From positions 1,364,001 through 1,428,000 of the forward strand of contig NZ_OZ034999.1 in assembly GCF_964030965.1 (NCBI RefSeq): a stretch of 64,000 bases of DNA, in the 5' to 3' direction. This stretch comes from Spiroplasma endosymbiont of Amphimallon solstitiale (GTDB lineage: Bacteria > Bacillota_I > Bacilli_A > Mycoplasmatales > VBWQ01). Made by a program: the position numbers and the translations under genes. The notes below the pieces were generated by a model. That model saw only the letters and a list, made by a program, of their open reading frames with translations, was not told where the DNA came from and did no database searches. How positions within the stretch are numbered: the stretch's first letter is position 1; the number at the start of each line of letters is the position of its first letter. Positions 3,595 to 64,000 of the stretch are shown here, in pieces.

Positions 3595-4459
3595 TTAAAG
3601 TAAAAGTTTTAACTTATTAATTCTTGCTGAATTAATTATAAGCATATTATCAAGTACTTTATCATTATAAATTTTAGCACCATATCCTTTTAAAGATTTA
3701 ACAAGATGTGATACATCACTTTCAGCACAAACTCCTTGATTTCAATTTTCTTTTTGATTTATAACACCATCTTTATTATTTTTAAAATATTTATATATTT
3801 CTTCATTTACATTATTTTCTTTTAAATAATCTAATAATTGATAATATTCACCATTAACAAATAAATTATATGCATTTGTTAATTTTTTATTATCTACTTT
3901 TCTATTAATAATAAATCCTTTTTTAAGTGCTTTAAATGCATGATGTCTATCAATTACATAAGGAATATTTTCTTTTTTAGCAGTAGTTTTAATTCAAGGT
4001 GCACCATCACCAATAAATACTAAACTACTTTTATTATAAAAAAATTGTAAATCAAGAAATTCATAAATTTTATCAATTAATTCTTGTCTTTTAATTCTTT
4101 GACCATTTCTAGTTTTCATATAAGTAATTTTTTTATCTTTTAAAACGTTTCTACTTTTAGTAGATTTTTCTTTTAATTTTGTAGAAAAGTAATGATACAT
4201 GATAAAGTGTTATTTTTAGAGAATTTTTACACTAAATAATGTTACTTTTAACAAATTTTTAATTAAAAATAATATTTTAAGTGTAAATTGATGAATAATT
4301 TTTGGTCATCCATACTTTTCTACATAATTAAAAGATTTTTCTAAATCTTTACCTTTATTTGCACTAATTGTACGAATACGATTTTTTTGTTTTTTATTAT
4401 TAAATAATGAAGATATAAAACAATCATCCATATTTATAAATAATTTTTCATTTGGTAAT
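3595..4459 (-). pseudogene. UPF0236/ISLre2-type transposase, C-terminal part, split by MITE
   Basis: The decoded minus strand matches the catalytic half of the intact transposase at 29003-30178, motif for motif: FINMDDCFIS (compare ICADDAFVT), GDGAPWIK (GDGALWIK), DRHHAFKALK (DKYHAYSYL) and ESDVSHLVKSL (ESDVYHFLKSL). The N-terminal half is missing; at about 4459 the frame runs into a different phage gene. A 163-bp MITE with 8-bp duplication GATTTTTC interrupts it after EKS. The downstream part reopens at an ATG inside the MITE. Probably a dead remnant of a second phage of the same type. Confidence 0.7.
4171..4333 (-). repeat. 163-bp MITE, copy in transposase remnant
   Basis: Target duplication gatttttc at 4163-4170 and 4334-4341. 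Forward orientation relative to the interrupted gene. Confidence 0.9.
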
Positions 4460-4834: not shown

Positions 4835-6166
4835 TTATTTTTTAGAAAATTTTAATTCTATTTCTTCAATATAATCTTTATCATTACCAGTCATAGTAGC
4901 ACTTGTTTTTGTAATATTACTAAATGTTGCTTTACCTTTTTCATAACCATTATTACCAGCATTTATTATTGCAGTTTCTAATTCATCATTAGTAGGAGTT
5001 GCTCCAGCCATGGTAATTTTTCCTAAATTTTTAAAATAAATTAAATCATTTAAACTAATTCTAAAATCATCAAAATCAGCAATTTTAAATGTTACTGGTG
5101 ATTTTTCTCTTTCTGCTGGAGTTAATTTAATTCAATTAGTTCAACAACGTTTTTGTGCTTCTTTAATTTCATCAGCAGTTGGCATTTTTTCCATAATAAA
5201 TGATAATCAACCACGAATTGCTGTTGTTATACCATAAAGTGCTTTACCTAATGTTTTTTGATTTAATGTATTATTATCAATTAAATTTACTATTTTTTGA
5301 AAACTATTAGGTTGTGCAAATGCATTTCTATGTACAAAAACTCCTAATACTTTTTTTAAATCAAATGTTTTTTCTAAATGTAAACCAGTTTTAGTATCTT
5401 TAACCATATCTTTATTTAAAAACATATGTTTATATAAAAACATACCAAATACTGATTGTTTATATAATTGACCACTTGCTACAGTATCAGCAGCAATTTG
5501 ACCATAATTTAATCTTAAATATGCTTTTGTTAATTGTAACATTGGAGTAAATCCTAATGCACCAATAAAATCACTTACATTTGTACCAATTTCAGTTTCA
5601 GTTATATTTCCTAATAATTCATTCATTTTATCTCCAATTTGATAAAATGCTGCTTTTGCTGTATCTTCTGTCATTTCTAACATATTAATAGGAATTACTT
5701 GTGATTTAGCAATACAATAATCTTTAATACCTTGTAAAAAAATACATTCTTGTATAAATAAATAATTTCTTAATGCACTTTCTGCTCATATTGATAACAT
5801 ATTTGCTTTTAAAGGAATTGGACTTGACATAAATCTATTCATATCAAAATCTTCAGTTCTTCAATCAATAACTAATATTTTGTCTAAAATAACACTAGTT
5901 GTTCTTAATGTTGTTCATTGTTTAATTGTTCCATTCATAACATCATATTTTGAACCCCAACGTAAACGTTCACCAATACGATAATATGCTTCTACTGCTC
6001 CTGGTATTTCACTTATTTGTTCTGCAACTGCACTTGCTTTTAAAAACATCATACTTTCATCATTATAAAGTATACCTTTTACTTGTGCTTCCATAGCAGT
6101 TAACATTGCTTTATTTCCATTATTACCACCAGTAATTAAACCAGTTGGAACTTGTGGAATAGCCAT
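4835..6166 (-). CDS. Phage major capsid-like protein (element A)
   Basis: 443 residues, starting MAIPQVPTGLITGGNNGNKA after a GGAGAGATATT site. It follows a scaffold-like gene, the usual order for capsid proteins. Most of the chain is unlike the capsid of the prophage at 20637, but the last 65 residues or so share a pattern with it: NLGKITMAG, PTNDELE, YEKGKATFSN and TKTSATMTG here, against NLGKITMAG, PTADEVE, YRKGNANFSD and TATSANVEG there. This suggests a shared C-terminal domain. The capsid call rests on gene order and this domain. Confidence 0.6.
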
Positions 6167-6813: not shown

Positions 6814-7509
6814 CTAATCATCATTTTCTATTTTTCTAGGTTCACTAATATTAATAATTATATTACTTTTTTCGTTATTTTCTTCTACTTCTTGTGGAAA
6901 TGCTAATCTTCAATAATCAAATTTTAATTGTGGAGTTGCTAATGCTCCTTTTAATAGTTCAACTTCTATTTTTTGACATGCTTTATCGTATTCAATGATA
7001 AATTTTTTTGCTCATTTTGGGCTTCTGTGTCGCCAATGAAATATGTTTTTTCTATCAATTCCTAATGCTAAGTTTAATCCTTGCTTAGTATATGGCTGAT
7101 TTTCTTTAGAAAAATACTTTAATTTTGTAGAAAAGTAATGATACATGATAAAGTGTTATTTTTAGAGAATTTTTACACTAAATAATGTTACTTTTAACAA
7201 ATTTTTAATTAAAAATAATATTTTAAGTGTAAATTGATGAATAATTTTTGGTCATCCATACTTTTCCTTTAATTTTGTAGAAAAGTAATGATACATGATA
7301 AAGTGTTATTTTTAGAGAATTTTTACACTAAATAATGTTACTTTTAACAAATTTTTAATTAAAAATAATATTTTAAGTGTAAATTGATGAATAATTTTTG
7401 GTCATCCATACTTTTCTACATAATTAAAATACTTTTCTACATAATTAAAAGAAAAATATTTTCTTATTTTTAATTTATAATTTCCTAATTCTTTTCTTTT
7501 TGTTGGCAT
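6814..7509 (-). pseudogene. Terminase small subunit-like gene (element A), split by nested MITEs
   Basis: After removing 342 bp (two nested MITEs and duplications), the product is about 117 residues: MPTKRKELGNYKLKIRKYFS joined to KENQPYTKQGLNLALGIDRK. The pattern (short helix, then TKQGLNLALGIDRKNIFHWRH as a helix-turn-helix, then helices ending LKFDYWRLAFPQE) resembles DNA-packaging small subunits, which recognise phage DNA. Unlike the prophage terS, no large terminase or portal gene follows; scaffold and capsid come next after a terminator and a new promoter. The split is after residues KYFS with duplication GAAAAATA. Confidence 0.55.
7117..7450 (-). repeat. MITE with a second MITE nested in its end
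   Basis: The outer copy has duplication gaaaaata (7109-7116, 7451-7458). The inner copy is 7267-7429, inserted in the outer copy's terminal repeat with duplication tacttttc (7259-7266, 7430-7437). Both are in the same orientation. Confidence 0.9.
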
Positions 7510-8898: not shown

Positions 8899-9688
8899 AA
8901 TATTTTTTCTCCCTTTTTATCAAATGTATTTATATTATTATTATTATAACTAAATTTATTAAAGATAATCTATTAAGGAGTAACAAAGTGTTGAAAATTT
9001 TAAATAAATTTAAAATTGCTATTCAAGAATTTAAAATGGTTTTTAAAGCAGTGGGGACTAAACACATTTATAAAAATAAAAGAACAATTATTAAAAGTAT
9101 TGCACTATGTTTTATTCCATTTTTATATGCTTTTATTGCTTTATGAGCTTTTTTTAATCCATTGGGAAATATTAATCGTTTACCAATTGCTTTAGTTAAT
9201 AACGATAGTTCTGCAGTAGGAATTAATCGTGTTATTAATCGACATAATTTAAATTTGGATAATGAAAATCCTAATAGTAGTGGTGCTTATGAATTTAAAA
9301 TTAATGATTTACAAATTAACAATGAGAAAAAAACATTTACTGTTTATTATTATGATGATTGAAAAAGTTATTATCAACATCAAAATGACAAAACTTTTTT
9401 AACTGAAATTATTATTGATACTTGTTTTACTAAGGATTTTAATGATTTTTTTAAAAAAGCTTTTAAAGTAGTTATTGAAAATATTAAAACTCCAGAAAGA
9501 ATTTGGAATCTTATTAATCAAATTACTATTAGACCAAAAATTAGTTTACAAGCTTCATATAAAGTTAGTCCGATTTTAGGTGAAATTAATGATTTTGCTT
9601 TAAATGCATTAAAAGATAATATTTTTAGTAAGTTTTTACCTGTTGTTATTAGTGATCAAGTATTTGATTATTGAGATAAAGATGCTTC

Positions 9689-9851
9689 TTTTAATTATGT
9701 AGAAAAGTATGGATGACCAAAAATTATTCATCAATTTACACTTAAAATATTATTTTTAATTAAAAATTTGTTAAAAATAACATTATTTAGTGTAAAAATT
9801 CTCTAAAAATAACACTTTATCATGTATCATTACTTTTCTACAAAATTAAAG
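9689..9851 (+). repeat. 163-bp MITE in YhgE-like gene
   Basis: Duplication gatgcttc at 9681-9688 and 9852-9859. Forward orientation relative to the gene. Confidence 0.95.
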
Positions 9852-10099
9852 GATGCTTCTGATTCAGGTTATCAGCATTTACAACCAATTTTAAAAGAAA
9901 TTTATGGTATTCTTTCAATTGCTGTTCCTGGTTTAGGTCCTCATGCTGAACAATTTAATACTAATATTGATAGTGTAACAAGCAATGGAGATATTAAACA
10001 TATTAAAGTTTTAGAACATGATTATTGAATGAATCATACTTTATTGGCACCTATTAACTTTATTAATTTTAATATTAATATTGAAGGTCAAGATAAATC

Positions 10100-10262
10100 C
10101 TTTAATTTTGTAGAAAAGTAATGATACATGATAAAGTGTTATTTTTAGAGAATTTTTACACTAAATAATGTTATTTTTAACAAATTTTTAATTAAAAATA
10201 ATATTTTAAGTGTAAATTGATGAATAATTTTTGGTCATCCATACTTTTCTACATAATTAAAA
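10100..10262 (-). repeat. 163-bp MITE in YhgE-like gene (reverse)
   Basis: Duplication gataaatc at 10092-10099 and 10263-10270. Opposite orientation to the previous copy, 248 bp away in the same gene. Confidence 0.95.
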
Positions 10263-11033
10263 GATAAATCTCCTTATGGATTTGGTTTAGGTCCATATTT
10301 CATGTGTATTGGAATGTGAGTAGGTACTTTATTATTAACTTTTACTTTTATTAGAAATAAAGATATTCCAAAAACTAAATTTTGATCAAACTATTTAGCT
10401 AAATCAGCATGAATGATTATTTTTGGTTTAATTCAGTCAACAATTTTAGTAACTTCATTATTACTATTATTTAATAATATTGATTTATGACAACGATTTT
10501 GACAAATGTTTTTATACATGTGATTAATAACAATTATTTTTGATTTGGTTGTTCAATCAATTGCTCACATGTTTCGTAATCATGATTTGGGTAGATTTTT
10601 AATTGTTATTCTTTTAATACTACAACTTTCTTCATCAAGTGGTACTTTTCCTGTTGAATTAGAACCCAAGTTTTTTCAAGTAATGTATAATTTTTACCAT
10701 TTAGTTATGCAATAAAAGGATTAAGAGAAATTCTTATTAATCCTAATCCAATGACTATTTTATGAAGTATTGGTTGTTTATTAATATTTATTATTATTTT
10801 AGTACCATTATCATTGTTACTTAATTGATGACATGATCATAAAGATGCAAAAAATGAAGTTGGAAATAAAAAAATTAAATTAGTTGTTAATAATTCTTCA
10901 TCATTAAAAAATAAAACTACTACTGATGAGAACTAAACATTATATTTTAGGTGTCCTTTTTTATTAATACTTTCTAATAAAAATAGAACACTTAAAAGAA
11001 TGTTGTATATTAATTTTTTCAATTATAAACTTA

Positions 11034-12185: not shown

Positions 12186-12308
12186 ATGGAATATAGAGAA
12201 TATAGAATGATTGGTTCTTGTGATAAATGTAGAAAACAATCTTCTTTTGGTAATAGATTATGTAATAAATGTTTTTGATTATTAATAGGTAGAAATAAAT
12301 ATGAGTAA
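12186..12308 (+). CDS. Very small zinc-binding phage protein
   Basis: 40 residues with CDKC and CNKC, one probable zinc site. An aaagga site precedes it. It overlaps the next start by 8 nt. Confidence 0.55.
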
Positions 12309-12951
12309 ATTAATTTTTAAAAAAGAAACTCATCAATATTTTTTAGAAGATAAAGAATTAATATCAGTTTCTAGAATTATTGATAATTATTTAGGTTTTG
12401 GATATAGTCATATAGCACCAGAAGTATTAAAAAATGCTTCAGTTCGTGGTAAATGAGTTCATAAACTTAATGAATTATATTTACAAAATATTAATGAAGA
12501 AAATATAATTAATAATTTATTAAAAAAATTAAAACCAGTAACTAATAATATAAATTATTCTTATTGTAAAAAATCACTTATGTTTTTAAAAGAAAAATTT
12601 AAAGATAAAAATAATTATGAATTTATTATTGAAAAACCTATTAATGATAATGTAATTGCTGGAACACCCGATTTAGTTTATTTAAATAAAAAAGAAAATA
12701 AATATTATTTAGTAGATTATAAAACTTATGCTTGTATTGATGAAGATAAATTAAAAAGAATTAAATTACAATTAACTGCTTATTATTGTATGTTACTTGC
12801 TAATGATATAAGTCCATGTAATAAAACTTATGTTTATTTAACTAATAAAAATAATCAAGAAACAATAGAAATTGAAATAACCAGTGAATTATTAATTGAA
12901 TGATTTAATGCAAAAACAAAATATTTTAAAGGAGAAAATAAAAATGATTAA
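12301..12951 (+). CDS. PD-(D/E)XK-type phage nuclease (RecE/Cas4-like exonuclease)
   Basis: 216 residues with the catalytic pattern of this superfamily: AGTPDLVYL, then YYLVDYKT, where GTPD supplies the Asp and DYK the Asp-x-Lys, and QLTAYYCML as the usual following Gln/Tyr helix. Such enzymes resect double-stranded DNA ends. Its partner is the RecT-like annealing protein at 13646, giving a recombination pair of RecET type for replication and repair of phage DNA. Overlapping starts show tight coupling. It is one of two genes in the early operon with a confident function. Confidence 0.75.
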
Positions 12952-13524: not shown

Positions 13525-13653
13525 ATGGATAAAAAAAGTTCTGGTATGGATAAATCAATTTTAATTTTATTAAAACATTTAGGAAAAATTAATAAAAAAT
13601 TAGATGAAATTTTAGAATTATTAAATAAAAAAGGAGAATCAACTAATGAGTAA
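13525..13653 (+). CDS. Small phage protein, helical
   Basis: 42 residues with a leucine-rich helix (ILILLKHLGKINKKLDEILE). Preceded by ataggagcaactt; overlaps the recT-like start by 8 nt. Confidence 0.5.
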   Translation: MDKKSSGMDKSILILLKHLGKINKKLDEILELLNKKGESTNE

Positions 13654-14488
13654 TAATAAAAATGAATTAAAAATTCCTAATTTTATTAAAAGTAATAAAG
13701 AAGAATATGTAAAATTTAGAAATTATTATGAAATGATTATAAATTCTAGTAAAGATTTAAAAAATATGAATACACAAAGTTTAATTAATGCATTAATTAA
13801 TTTATATAAATTAAATCTTTCAATTAATCCAATTAAAAAAGAATTAGCATTAATTCCTTATGGTGATGAATTACAAGTTCAAATTCAAGAAGATGGTTGA
13901 TTAACATTATTACAAAGAACTGGATTAGTTGTTGATTTTCAAAGAGAAAAAATAACAACTGCACATAAATTTAATAAAGAAAATAATAAATGAGAAATTA
14001 ATCCAGCATTAATTTTTGAAAGAAAAACAATTAATACTATTGGTTATTATTGTTATATTTCACTTTTAGATAAAAATGGTAAAATTAATAATTTTTATAA
14101 AGGAATGACTGTTGAAGAAATTAATCAACATAAAGATAAATATGGAAAAACTTATAATAAAAAAAGTCAAGAATGAAAATTAAATCATATATGAACTTCT
14201 GCATTTGACCAAATGGCTTTAAAAACAGTAGTTAAAGCATTAATTCGTGAAATTAATAAAACACCAATTATAGTATTAAATAATCAAGATGATATTAATT
14301 TGGCACTTCAATTAGACCAAGGTGTAGTAATTGATGAAGAAACTATTGCATATAAGGATAATACTGGTGATGAAGTTAAAATTATTAATTCAAATAATAA
14401 TATTGATAATACTGATATAAATTCTACTTTATCTAAATTAAAAGAATTAGAAAAAGAAGAAGAAATTATAGAAAATTTTGAAGTTTAG
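13646..14488 (+). CDS. RecT-family single-strand annealing protein
   Basis: 280 residues. The core matches RecT: LNLSINPIKKELALIPYG, then LQVQIQEDGWLTLLQRTG, later TINTIGYYCYISLLDKNGK, and the closing helix FDQMALKTVVKALIRE. It binds single-stranded DNA and anneals complementary strands, working with the nuclease encoded at 12301. The last 60 residues are acidic and Asn-rich and probably disordered. aaaaaggagaatcaact gives the start. Confidence 0.8.
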
Positions 14489-14767: not shown

Positions 14768-14867
14768 TATTTAGGCATTTGACATATATCCTTTCTAACT
14801 CCTATTCCCTATTTTTTATTCTTGCTTAAAATATGTCAATGTAAGTCCTAAATTTTATATCTATACA

Positions 14868-14948
14868 GAACGAAACTATAGAATTATTAAAAATTTGGAT
14901 AACATTATAATTCTATAGTCCACCGTTTATTACGGTGCTGATGAGTTC
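14868..14948 (+). ncRNA. Type II hammerhead ribozyme, copy 1
   Basis: All conserved parts are in the type II order. Stem II strand GAAC (14868-14871), core GAAA (14872-14875), stem III CTATAGAATTAT pairing perfectly over 12 bp with ATAATTCTATAG (14907-14918), U16.1 and C17 (14919-14920), stem I CACCGT/ACGGTG with loop TTATT (14921-14937), core CTGATGA (14938-14944), and closing stem II strand GTTC (14945-14948). Predicted cleavage is after C at 14920. It lies between the early gene ending at 14767 and the gene at 14967, whose ribosome-binding site follows at once, so it probably trims a phage transcript and leaves a hairpin at the new 5' end. Confidence 0.9.
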
Positions 14949-14966
14949 ATAAAAGGATGTGAAATA

Positions 14967-15224
14967 ATGAGAAATATTAGAACTGAATGATTTTATAATG
15001 ACAAAAGTCCAAAAGAAATAAAATGTCCAACAGTAAGTTTATTAAAAAATAAAGAAGATGCTTTATGTTATTTATTAGCATTAAATTTATATCCAAAATT
15101 ATATCCACAAGATATTTTTTATTCATGAATATTAGAAAATAATCAAACTGGATATTTAATTATAGTTGGTAATAATAGAGATACTATTGGAAATATGCAA
15201 TTTAAATTTATAAAAGAAAGTTAA
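14967..15224 (+). CDS. Phage protein downstream of ribozyme, unknown function
   Basis: 85 residues (MRNIRTEWFYNDKSPKEIKC at the start), soluble, with Trp read from TGA twice. aaaaggatgtgaaata precedes it. The hammerhead cleavage point is 46 nt upstream of the start, so this gene begins the processed transcript. An identical copy lies at 63642. Confidence 0.65.
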
Positions 15225-15337: not shown

Positions 15338-16101
15338 AAAATGCCAAATACAGAAACTACAAATTCAAATTATACTTTATTAAAATTAATAAGAACGGGA
15401 ATATCACCATTATCAGCAATGATAGGTATAAGTTCATATTATGGACATTTATTAAATTATCCAATATTAGGAAGTATTAATGCTTTATTTTTTAGTAAAA
15501 AATTAGGAATTGATATTTGAAATATTAATCAACATCCAACACCTAAAAATAAATTAATTAATATATTTAAAAAAATAACAATTGGTTTAAGTACAACTTT
15601 TATAACAAATTATATTAAATGAAACGAAAATAATATTAATCCTATTATTCCAACAACACCAATTCCTACAACTACTGTTGACCCATTTCCACCAGATTTA
15701 TTATTTAATATTAATACTAATAATGATAATAATTTCATGGATTGAGATACTTATATTTCATTAAATGCTTTTGCTTTTGCAAATCTTATTAGTGCTTTTA
15801 CTGAATTAATACCGAATAGATTTGAAAATATAAGAAAGATATGTAATATGGCAACTGGTGGTTGTTTAATTTCAAGTGGTGTTGCAATGGGGATAAATAA
15901 TGATTTTAATAATGCTTATGCAGTTCCGACAATAGTTGCTGGAGCAAGTGAAATTATTCATAATTTATTACCAATGGAAACTACAAATCATATTCAAGAA
16001 ATGCAAGAAACAGCATTTAATAATGAAACAAGAAGATTAATAAATGATAATAGATTTACCATTGGCAATGTTTAGTAATCTGTGTAACTTACAAAAATAA
16101 C

Positions 16102-16263
16102 CTTTAATTTTGTAGAAAAGTAATGATACATGATAAAGTGTTATTTTTAGAGAATTTTTACACTAAATAATGTTACTTTTAACAAATTTTTAATTAAAAA
16201 TAATATTTTAAGTGTAAATTGATGAATAATTTTTGGTCATCCATACTTTTCTACATAATTAAA
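16102..16263 (-). repeat. MITE in IS256 leader
   Basis: Duplication aaaataac at 16094-16101 and 16264-16271, with one A fewer at the right end. Copies 2 and 3 of IS256 lack it. Confidence 0.9.
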
Positions 16264-16304
16264 AAAAATAACTATGTTTAATTAATTCTAGTAAATATAA
16301 TTAA

Positions 16305-20636: not shown

Positions 20637-21827
20637 TTACTTCTTTGTAAAAGTTACTTGTAAAGAACCATCATATAAAGATTTACCTTCAACATTAGCA
20701 CTTGTTGCTGTTAAATCTGAAAAATTAGCATTACCTTTTCGATAATTAGGATTTTTAGCAATAACTGCTTTTTCAACTTCATCTGCAGTTGGAGCATCAC
20801 CAGCCATAGTTATTTTTCCTAAATTCGTAAACTCAATTGCTGTTGCAATATCAATACTTGAAGTAACTGTAAATCCTTTAACTAAATCTGGTCTTAATGC
20901 TTTGCCTTCTGAAACTAAAAACTTATGAAAATTTTTAACATTACCATTCGTTTGTAAAACAAAAGTATTATCTTGACCACGATTAAATGGAAATGCTAAT
21001 GCTTCTTTATGTACTAATACAGCATCACATCCTAAAAAATTAAATGATTCTTGTTTATCAATAACTCCAGCAGGATAATTTCTACCTAATCATGGACATT
21101 CTATAATTTTAATACCACCAATTTCTACAATTTTCCCATCTTTTAATGCTTGTGAAGCACTATCACTACCTAATGTTGTAGTTGATAATAATACTAATGG
21201 TTTAAAAAAACTAGATACTCATAATACATAATCTTCTTCATCTGTACCAATATATTCATCAGTAATTCTTGCTTTTAATGTTGCTAATGTATTTGATATT
21301 TTTAATCATAAAAGCATACGATAATCATCTATTTTAGGATTACTTGGTAATGCAATATTAATAATTCCATTATCTTTAGCTGTTTTAACTGCTAAAGATA
21401 ATAATTTAGCAACTAAATATATTTCTACTGATTTTGCTTTTGCATCAATTCAACTAGATGCTAAACTATCTGATACTATAACATTACCATCTTCATATCT
21501 TGCACCTAATCTTTTTAAATCAAGTGTTTCTTCTTCAAAATTAATTTCTTTTTTCTTATCTAAAAGAATTTGTATTGTATTCACTGCTGTTAGATTATTG
21601 GCACCAGCACCTGCTGTATAATCTTCAGTAGGATTTCTTTTAGTAATATTATAAATAGCAGTACCAGCATCTAATTGTTCTCTATTTTCTACTGTTGCAT
21701 TAATTAATGCTACTCTTTTTGATAATAAAACTTTTAAATTTTTAATATATTTTACTGATAAATCTAATTTACCAGTTGGATTACTAGGGTCATTAATTGT
21801 TGTTGATTGTGTTGTAATAATTGCCAT
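20637..21827 (-). CDS. Phage major capsid protein
   Basis: 396 residues directly after the scaffold-like gene. It starts MAIITTQSTTINDPSNPTGK; long conserved-looking helices (KNLKVLLSKRVALINATVEN) and the segment WIDAKAKSVEIYLVAKLLSL are those of phage coat proteins. The C-terminal segment with NLGKITMAG is shared with the otherwise different capsid at 4835. Identification rests on order (portal, internal protein, scaffold, capsid) and size. Confidence 0.65.
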
Positions 21828-57986: not shown

Positions 57987-59033
57987 CTAACGATATCTTT
58001 CTACATAGTGACTAACTAAACCACGATAAATAAAAGGTATTGTTAATTGCATAATTGGATAAGTAAACAAAAAAATATGAATAAAATTGTAAACTAATGA
58101 GTAAAAAAGAGGATTAAATCCTGATCAAATATTTTTACTTCCATCAGCATTAGTAATTTGTGATCAAATAAAATATCCTGCTATTGTTTGTCAAAAATAA
58201 ATAATTAAACAAACTAAAAAACAATGTAAAAAATAATTAATATAAGTAAAAATTGATTTATCAGCTTTTAAATTAAAACGTAATAATGAAATAATAGCCG
58301 GCGTTGTCATTGGCAAAAAATAATCTAATAAATAACTTCAAGTACTAATAACATAACCACCACCAATAAATAATAATGACATTAAAGCACTAATCATACC
58401 CGTTAATCATCCACTTGCAAAGCCAATAATATAACTAATAACCATTAAAGGTATATATTTAATAGCAATACCGCCGCCGTATGGCATTTTTGGTAATAAA
58501 TTTTGTTCAATAAAAGCACAAGCAATAGTTACACCAGTAAATAAAGCAATAATTGTATAATCAATAACTAATCATCGTTTAATACCAAATGCAAATTTAA
58601 AATTAGTTCATCATCTTGTTTTTAAAATGGCAAAAGTTTCTTCTTTTTGTCATTGATAATGTTTAATTAAATTAAAAATTAATGCAATGGGATTGATACT
58701 AAAAATTGATAGTAATGTAACAATAACAATATTTTTATGCATATCTTCTATTTTAACTGTTCATGTAATAACAGATAATAAAATTGATGAAATTAATAAT
58801 AAACAAAGAATTAATATTAAATAAATTTTACTGCTATAAAATTGTCAACCAGTAATAGTAGTAACTTTAAAAAAGTGATTAATACCACTAGCAGGTAAAA
58901 TACTAATAATAACTGTTAATGTTAGAAGAGTAATTAAACTAAAAATGGCTGATGCTTTAATTAACATTCCTACCCCCAGTTTGCTTTTAATTTTATTATA
59001 ATTGATAGTTGTTAATAGTTGTTCTTTAAACAT
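57987..59033 (-). CDS. thiT: ThiT-like thiamine transporter component
   Basis: 348 residues, larger than most ThiT proteins (about 190) because of an N-terminal part with three or so membrane helices (LIKASAIFSLITLLTLTVII). The C-terminal half has the ThiT look: KMPYGGGIAIKYIPLMVISY, GFASGWLTGMISALMSLLFI, YVISTWSYLLDYFLPM and NYFLHCFLVCLIIYFW. As an ECF substrate-binding unit it would import thiamine. The TPP riboswitch upstream supports this strongly. SD AAAGGAG is 13 nt from ATG and lies in a hairpin. Confidence 0.8.
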
Positions 59034-59090: not shown

Positions 59091-59104
59091 TTAAAATATA
59101 AAAA

Positions 59105-59179
59105 ATAAAGTCTCCCTCCGCTAGTACTAACTAGATCAGGTTATAGGGTATTTCTCAGGCAATGCCACCCCTGCTTTAT
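59105..59179 (-). promoter_or_regulatory. TPP riboswitch (THI element)
   Basis: The minus strand carries the conserved parts in order: GGGGTG, CTGAGAAATACCC, ACCTGATC, GTTAGTACTAGCGGAGGGA. P1 is formed by ATAAAG and CTTTAT. It binds thiamine pyrophosphate and turns down the downstream thiT gene. Confidence 0.97.
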
Positions 59180-59385
59180 ATAATATATGCAAATTAATCC
59201 ATATTTACTACTATTATAACATTCAAAATATTTTTTTAAATATAAAATATAATTTTTTTACGATTTTTAGTTTAAATTAAAATTTGCTCTATTTTTATTT
59301 GAAATTTATTTGAAAAAAAATAAAATATATTCACTTCTTAAAAATAAGAAGTTATTGGGAAAAAATAAAAAGGAGTTTTTTAAAT

Positions 59386-61226
59386 ATGAAAAAGATATCA
59401 ACACTAATTGCAACAACAATTTTAGCAACAGCAAGTACAAACAGTTTAAATACCTTACTTATCAATAATATAAATAATAAAATTAAAACAAATATTAAAA
59501 ATGAAAATAATAATTGAAAAATAAATGAAATTAAGTCTTTAACAACTGATAGAAATAGAAATGTTTATGCACTTGCTAATAATACTGTTTATAAATGTTT
59601 AGCAGAACAAACAGAATTCAAACAAATGATAGTACCTAAAGAATTTGCTAATGGTAAATTTATAAAAACTGATAAAGATAAAAATACTTATGTCGCAACT
59701 AATAATAATATTTATAAATGTCTTGCAACACAAACATATTTTCAACAAATGACAGTACCTAAAGAATTAGAAAATATTAGATTTTTAAAAATTAATGAGA
59801 GAGATGGGAATGTTTTTATAATAGCTAATAATAATATTTATAAATGTTTAGCAGGACAATGAGAATTTAAAAAAATAACATTACCAACTAACATTAATTT
59901 TTTGAGTCACATAAGTATTGATAAATATGGAAATATTTATATCACTGCCAATAACAATCTTCATGTTCCTTTTGCGAATAGTATTTATAAGTGTTTAGAA
60001 AATGAAAACGAATTTAAACAATTGAATATAGATACAAATAAAGAAACATTAGAAATTTCTTTTAATTATGTAGAAAAGTATTTTAATTATGTAGAAAAGT
60101 ATGGATGACCAAAAATTATTCATCAATTTACACTTAAAATATTATTTTTAATTAAAAATTTGTTAAAAGTAACATTATTTAGTGTAAAAATTCTCTAAAA
60201 ATAACACTTTATCATGTATCATTACTTTTCTACAAAATTAAAGGAAAAGTATGGATGACCAAAAATTATTCATCAATTTACACTTAAAATATTATTTTTA
60301 ATTAAAAATTTGTTAAAAGTAACATTATTTAGTGTAAAAATTCTCTAAAAATAACACTTTATCATGTATCATTACTTTTCTACAAAATTAAAGGAAATTT
60401 CTTTTAACAACGGGCAAAGATGGACACATTTATGTAATTGCAAATAATAGTATTTATAAATGTCTAGCAGAACAAACAAAATTTATAATAATAAGTGAGC
60501 ATTGGGGAGTACCTGTTAATGCTATTTTAGTAACAGATGAAAATGGAACTATCTATATTGCAGATAATAATATTTATAAATATTCAGTAAAACAAAAAGA
60601 ATTTAAGAAAATAAATAATTCACCAATAGATGGAATAATCAAAAAAATAATAATAAATAATAAAAATATTTATATAATAACTAGTAATAACTTTGCAATA
60701 AATAAAGTTTATAAATTTGATTTTTTACAATCAAACTTTATTGAACTGAAAGTTATTGATAATGATACATATGATGTTAGTAATATTACTTTTGATAGTA
60801 ATAAAAATATTTATGTTTTAACTATTAATGGTATTTATAAATGTTCATCTGAACAAACAGAATTTAAAAAAATGACAAAAATATGATGAAAAACAACAGA
60901 ATTTCATTTTAATAACGGAAAATTAACTGATATAAGTTATTGAAAACAGACTAGAAATAATTCATTTATTCATACATTTGAATGAAATACAGAATATGGT
61001 TTACCACTTGATTATCGATATATTACTTTTTTTAATGAAAATGGTACAGAAGATTATGTAGATTCATCTTATAGTTGAGGCGATACAGGATACCCAGCTA
61101 TTAACATTAATCAAGTTATTAAAAATCTAAATTTTCAAAAAAATTTAATAAATGCAAAAGTAACAACAAATGGACCTATTAACCCAGCAAATTTTTGTAA
61201 TAGTATCATATGTAATAATAAAGAAA
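59386..61226 (+). pseudogene. Beta-propeller surface protein, broken and truncated
   Basis: Signal peptide (MKKISTLIATTILATASTNS), then seven or more repeats of 40-45 residues with the motif NVYALANNTVYKCLAEQTEF, or close variants (NIYKCLA, NSIYKCLE). Nested MITEs at 60060 interrupt after LEIS, and the sequence after them is shifted by one base (LLTTGKDGHIYVIANN in another frame). It ends at IS256 copy 3 (NNKERG). Paralogue of the gene at 11139/30375. Cell-surface adhesion or host contact is a guess from the signal peptide and repeats. Confidence 0.7.
60060..60393 (+). repeat. MITE with a second MITE nested in its end
   Basis: Outer duplication gaaatttc (60052-60059, 60394-60401). The inner copy is 60081-60243 with duplication gaaaagta (60073-60080, 60244-60251), the same terminal-repeat target as in the 7117 pair. 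Confidence 0.95.
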
Positions 61227-63641: not shown

Positions 63642-63899
63642 TTAACTTTCTTTTATAAATTTAAATTGCATATTTCCAATAGTATCTCTATTATTACCAA
63701 CTATAATTAAATATCCAGTTTGATTATTTTCTAATATTCATGAATAAAAAATATCTTGTGGATATAATTTTGGATATAAATTTAATGCTAATAAATAACA
63801 TAAAGCATCTTCTTTATTTTTTAATAAACTTACTGTTGGACATTTTATTTCTTTTGGACTTTTGTCATTATAAAATCATTCAGTTCTAATATTTCTCAT
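63642..63899 (-). CDS. Phage protein downstream of ribozyme, second copy
   Basis: 85 residues, same as at 14967. Ribozyme copy 2 lies 19 nt upstream of its start. Confidence 0.65.
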
Positions 63900-63917
63900 T
63901 ATTTCACATCCTTTTAT

Positions 63918-63998
63918 GAACTCATCAGCACCGTAATAAACGGTGGACTATAGAATTATAATGTTATCCAAATTTTTAATAATTCTATAGTTTCGTTC
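63918..63998 (-). ncRNA. Type II hammerhead ribozyme, copy 2
   Basis: Identical to 14868-14948 by eye; all core and stem elements are complete just inside the window edge. Cleavage is predicted between 63946 and 63945. Confidence 0.9.
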
Positions 63999-64000
63999 TG

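Follow-up and report, generated by a model that had tools for sequence, protein, structure and literature searches.

Prophage regions and the small downstream gene

The window, a 64,000-base stretch of a Spiroplasma endosymbiont genome, carries two prophage regions on opposite strands. The first, on the (+) strand, includes genes for a phage PD-(D/E)XK exonuclease (12301-12951) and a RecT recombinase (13646-14488), a conserved leader (14772-14850), a hammerhead ribozyme (14868-14948) and a phage gene encoding an 85-aa protein (14967-15224). The second carries an identical ribozyme at 63918-63998 (-), directly upstream of the same gene, read with code 4, at 63642-63899 (-). The 91 bases that include the ribozyme are repeated at 14866-14956 (+), and the two prophages are 100% identical across 4629 bases. 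The existence of a second, identical hammerhead upstream of the same phage gene, as originally predicted, is thus established with exact coordinates. The recurrence of ribozyme and gene on the other strand also stands, while the description of the second prophage as partial needs correction: it runs on past position 64000, with RecT at would-be positions 64381-65220, and its partial appearance is mostly due to the end of the window there.

The 85-aa protein has no match in Pfam or PHROG, and its AlphaFold model (pLDDT 55) is too poor for use. The leader upstream of the ribozyme persists though the genes farther upstream differ between copies, and it contains an inverted repeat, TTGACATAT (14779-14787) and ATATGTCAA (14831-14839), conserved in every copy, with a spacer that differs in length. 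This TTGACATAT...ATATGTCAA repeat may represent parts of an operator or a promoter.

Structure of the ribozyme

The element at 63918-63998 (-) is complete, as seen in its sequence, by a structural descriptor and by a covariance model. From its 5' end it comprises the first strand of stem II, GAAC (63998-63995), core GAA (63994-63992), a 13-bp stem III (63991-63979 paired with 63959-63947), C17 (63946), a 6-bp stem I (63945-63940 paired with 63934-63929) closed by loop I (63935-63939, UUAUU in this copy), core CUGAUGA (63928-63922) and the second strand of stem II, GUUC (63921-63918). Stem II is open and stems I and III are closed by hairpin loops, which is the type II layout. The helices of 4 (II), 13 (III) and 6 (I) bp contain no mismatch, giving 23 pairs in total, and the full core is present (GAAA, CUGAUGA and the cleavage triplet GUC). 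In the model alignment A15.1-U16.1, C15.2-G16.2 and C17 each occupy the expected position. The core CUGANGA, GAA and the A15.1-U16.1 pair are intact in all 17 copies described below, and every copy has GUC, satisfying the NUH triplet rule (H17 not G). The hammerhead structure is also the minimum free energy fold (z -3.4). The assignment of this element as a type II hammerhead is therefore confirmed at the level of sequence, and its activity is predicted.

Cleavage is predicted after C17 of the GUC triplet, between 63946 and 63945 (-), and in the first prophage between 14920 and 14921 (+), as judged from where H17 and A15.1-U16.1 fall in the model alignment and in line with established hammerhead chemistry. 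A Shine-Dalgarno-like AAAGGA (63909-63914, (-)) begins 3 nt past stem II and lies 9 nt before the ATG.

Detection and chance expectation

A descriptor covering types I, II and III found two places only in the 64-kb window, each with 6+4+13 pairs. The same descriptor gave some weaker match in seven of 100 dinucleotide shuffles, the best of them with 15 pairs. As an independent test, the covariance model R2 was trained, with loops masked and with no Spiroplasma sequence, on nine hammerheads of type II that four IMG/VR contigs supplied. These nine came from a search with the skeleton GAACGAAAC...CTGATGAGTTC together with a descriptor run on the same contigs, and five of them were picked by this descriptor, which demands pairing. 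In the window, model R2 reported 14868-14948 (+) and 63918-63998 (-) only, at 36.5 bits (E 5.8e-11), with a training set that is not blind to stem II, since the skeleton and the Spiroplasma copies have this stem in common, stems I and III being unrelated.

The Rfam scan at gathering threshold, which covered RF02276, RF00008 and other families of the clan, did not report the ribozyme. A permissive scan gave no real hammerhead match, only RF00008 at 14.2 bits with the 5' part misread, and a search of the genus with RF02276 found no match. The miss is a limit of the models for a long stem III and does not reflect an absent ribozyme feature; the Rfam models are thereby shown to miss type II members having such a stem.

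Distribution among Spiroplasma genomes

The source genome contains four identical ribozyme copies and not two. Two other Spiroplasma genomes contain 3 and 10 copies, the latter being that of the Danaus chrysippus endosymbiont, which brings the total to 17, spread over three species of a single genus. Searching 320 genomes of the order with model R2 revealed nothing beyond these 17 copies at E 0.01, and the type II core pattern occurs at these 17 places only among nine genomes, with no match in the reversed control. One match to the type III pattern among the nine genomes was taken as chance. Matches outside the genus to a model built from the Spiroplasma copies were weak (20-23 bits), and by descriptor they included no credible type II hammerhead; those of the loci that were inspected resemble protein-coding sequence.

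Seventeen copies of the gene retain an intact 5' end, and the ribozyme is present at all of them at constant spacing, 10 bases separating the 91-base match from the ATG. A gene copy lacking the ribozyme was looked for among these and not found. The proposal that the ribozyme belongs to the phage and is retained beside one gene thus holds across three genomes. In genome G007 an insertion interrupts one copy of the gene (contig C1) and the ribozyme is still there, and contig C2 contains, at about 80.6-80.9 kb, two truncated ribozyme remnants with no matching gene copy beside them. The same genome and genome G008 also hold more distant RecT-bearing relatives (about 52% identity), which have other genes following RecT and possess neither the 85-aa gene nor the hammerhead, so that gene and ribozyme come and go together.

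Comparison with known hammerheads

Type II hammerheads of bacteria and phages (Perreault et al. 2011, PMC3088659; RF02276, Hammerhead_II) are likewise described with an open stem II, closed stems I and III, a full core and GUC, and the same survey places members of the class in prophages beside small genes of unknown function. The Spiroplasma element differs from the RF02276 class in its long stem III (13 bp with a 19-nt loop), in an unsupported pseudoknot with the 3' tail, in being missed by RF02276 itself, and in its mollicute host. The variant named HHphage, of haloviruses HF1 and HF2, is reported to precede a viral start codon too, by 13 nt, and is a core and structural variant beside a helicase gene, whereas the Spiroplasma core is canonical (PMC3088659).

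The hammerheads of the IMG/VR contigs (L132, L133, L135 and L136), which are environmental viral sequences, have the same core, and five of the nine have GAAC/GUUC as stem II. As in Spiroplasma, a ribosome-binding site and a small ORF follow closely behind at least seven of the nine. However, their stems I and III and their downstream genes are unrelated to those of Spiroplasma, and each contig carries two or three, not one. Two of the six pattern matches on viral contigs (L131 and L134) have no hammerhead stems and look coding; they were rejected.

The hammerhead class is thus known, and the Spiroplasma prophage element adds a new member to it. No earlier report linking hammerheads with Spiroplasma or Mollicutes was found in the searched literature, nor does the 2011 survey (PMC3088659) name any mollicute in its main text, though its supplements may contain an earlier listing. 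Within these bounds, the hosts of hammerhead ribozymes are extended to Spiroplasma prophages.

Probable processing of the leader of the 85-aa gene

Phage type II hammerheads described earlier cleave, and the processing of long phage transcripts has been proposed as their function (PMC3088659); the effect of phage hammerheads on mRNA is treated as an open question in the literature (PMC6155905). The most probable interpretation of the Spiroplasma element, to which we assign a probability of about 0.7, is that in a RecT-bearing prophage it acts as a self-cutting hammerhead within the leader of a small gene, splitting the transcript after GUC and probably thereby controlling how stable or abundant the 85-aa mRNA is. 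The RNA would fold during transcription and cleave itself 46 nt ahead of the start codon, in which case the upstream product would have the stem III hairpin (13 bp) as its 3' end. The downstream mRNA would carry a 5'-OH and a 46-nt leader, in which the 6-bp stem I hairpin comes first and AAAGGA follows nine bases before the ATG. A longer phage transcript would in this way probably be cut into units with hairpin-protected ends. Cleavage may either stabilise or destabilise the mRNA of the 85-aa gene. Processing of the leader is considered the most likely use because at least seven of the nine viral-contig hammerheads stand just before a ribosome-binding site. No intrinsic terminator (a G+C-rich hairpin followed by a T run) was found near the ribozyme.

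A pseudoknot between loop I and the 3' tail is typical of fast type II hammerheads and is found in the majority of the type, not in all. In the Spiroplasma copies such pairing (UUUAU/AUAAA) is possible in three of the five loops and absent in two, which is no better than in shuffled loops; with the pseudoknot unsupported, the ribozyme may be modestly active at cellular magnesium levels.

The proximity of the Shine-Dalgarno sequence, starting 3 nt after stem II, suggests another function, in which the hammerhead is regulatory and is disabled by ribosome binding or by a Shine-Dalgarno hairpin, so that a transcript would be either cleaved or translated into the 85-aa protein, never both. An alternative hairpin, formed by UUCAUA/UGUGAA pairing around AAAGGA, would hold the Shine-Dalgarno sequence in its loop, exclude stem II and compete with it once the downstream arm is transcribed; transcripts truncated before this second arm favour stem II. 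In context the alternative hairpin is predicted at -22.8 kcal/mol and the hammerhead fold at -21.6 kcal/mol, a gap that lies within the error of the model and ignores the tertiary stability of the core, and 2.1% of shuffles of the hairpin stretch fold equally well. However, the same hairpin was not seen by eye at the hammerheads of other phages, and the stretch is invariant, so that its variation says nothing on pairing. We regard this regulatory function as unlikely. A related possibility, which we hold to be rather unlikely as well, is a co-transcriptional switch between stem II and the Shine-Dalgarno hairpin, in which the speed of transcription or the binding of a ribosome would select between cleavage and translation; loop I would then drift, no tertiary contact being needed.

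Conservation and covariation

Among the 17 copies, none of the 84 ribozyme columns outside loop I carries a substitution, the sole difference there being the length of an A-run, and loop I, with five of its six columns variable, is the sole part of the ribozyme with substitutions. In the 85-aa gene 72 of 258 columns vary, part of this variation stemming from two shifted or interrupted rows. The comparison of synonymous sites, which excludes these rows, is safer than the column count because they inflate the variation of the gene; it gives a difference of about 0.06-0.15 (about 6-15%) for most pairs of copies. The pN/pS ratio is below 1 in every gene pair having synonymous differences, and the 85-aa gene is therefore under purifying selection. 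The ribozyme is conserved beyond the neutral sites of this gene, and the region farther upstream is wholly replaced in several copies.

These data bear on whether the ribozyme is a dead relic that spread recently with its prophage, its identity reflecting recent copying only. The source-genome copies share 100% identity across 4.6 kb, and prophage and insertion-sequence copies abound in the host genomes, as such a history would predict. However, the ribozyme, loop I excepted, has not diverged between the three species, whereas its linked gene and the upstream genes have. The core is kept in all 17 full-length copies and none with a broken core was seen beside an intact gene, which makes a relic highly improbable. 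The least probable account is that the conserved unit is a DNA element, with the palindromes CTATAGAATTAT...ATAATTCTATAG and CACCGT...ACGGTG as operators and TATACA as a -10 box, so that the RNA would not be transcribed in full: both stems are necessarily DNA palindromes, TATACA (four of six matches to the -10 consensus) lies just before the motif and a conserved inverted repeat lies upstream, but operators do not need GAAA, CUGAUGA, A15.1-U16.1, GUC and a 4-bp stem II at exact hammerhead positions, the promoter scan had no match at TATACA, and the variation is located in an RNA hairpin loop.

For the hammerhead itself, the caution of the original prediction that an identical pair gives no covariation support applies to the wider set of copies as well. 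None of the 23 pairs varies among the Spiroplasma copies, covariation within the lineage is hence absent, and the compensatory changes in stem III or stem I that the prediction had looked to in related prophages did not appear in the other genomes. Covariation is seen at the level of the class only, against the nine other phage hammerheads, and there partly by construction, owing to the pairing-demanding descriptor. Covariation from further relatives is unavailable, as the 85-aa gene has no relatives in IMG/VR or phage records and RecT has none in IMG/VR by the search used. The 17 natural copies, invariant except for loop I and always placed before one gene, form a compact system for testing the effect of phage hammerheads on mRNA.

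Loop I of the G007 copies (e.g. L033) contains UAGUAAA, which resembles the reverse complement of UUUAUUA found elsewhere. The likeness covers six of seven positions and is A/T-rich; it fits a template switch between stem arms and may also be due to chance.

Other features of the window

A TPP riboswitch was recognised above gathering score at 59095-59182 (-), upstream of a gene encoding 348 aa (57987-59033). A repeat of about 175 bases, with ends ATCATTACTTTTCTAC, is present in both orientations at 9680-9854, 10097-10271 and 16101-16273. Three ORFs that otherwise differ (3595-4200, 6814-7146 and 9822-10121) take identical first residues from one of its ends, and the other end forms the common C-terminus of 8988-9806 and 59284-60198. 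Two phage proteins, encoded at 4835-6166 (-) and 20637-21827 (-), are different and of similar length, and have a related C-terminal stretch (NLGKITMAG...).
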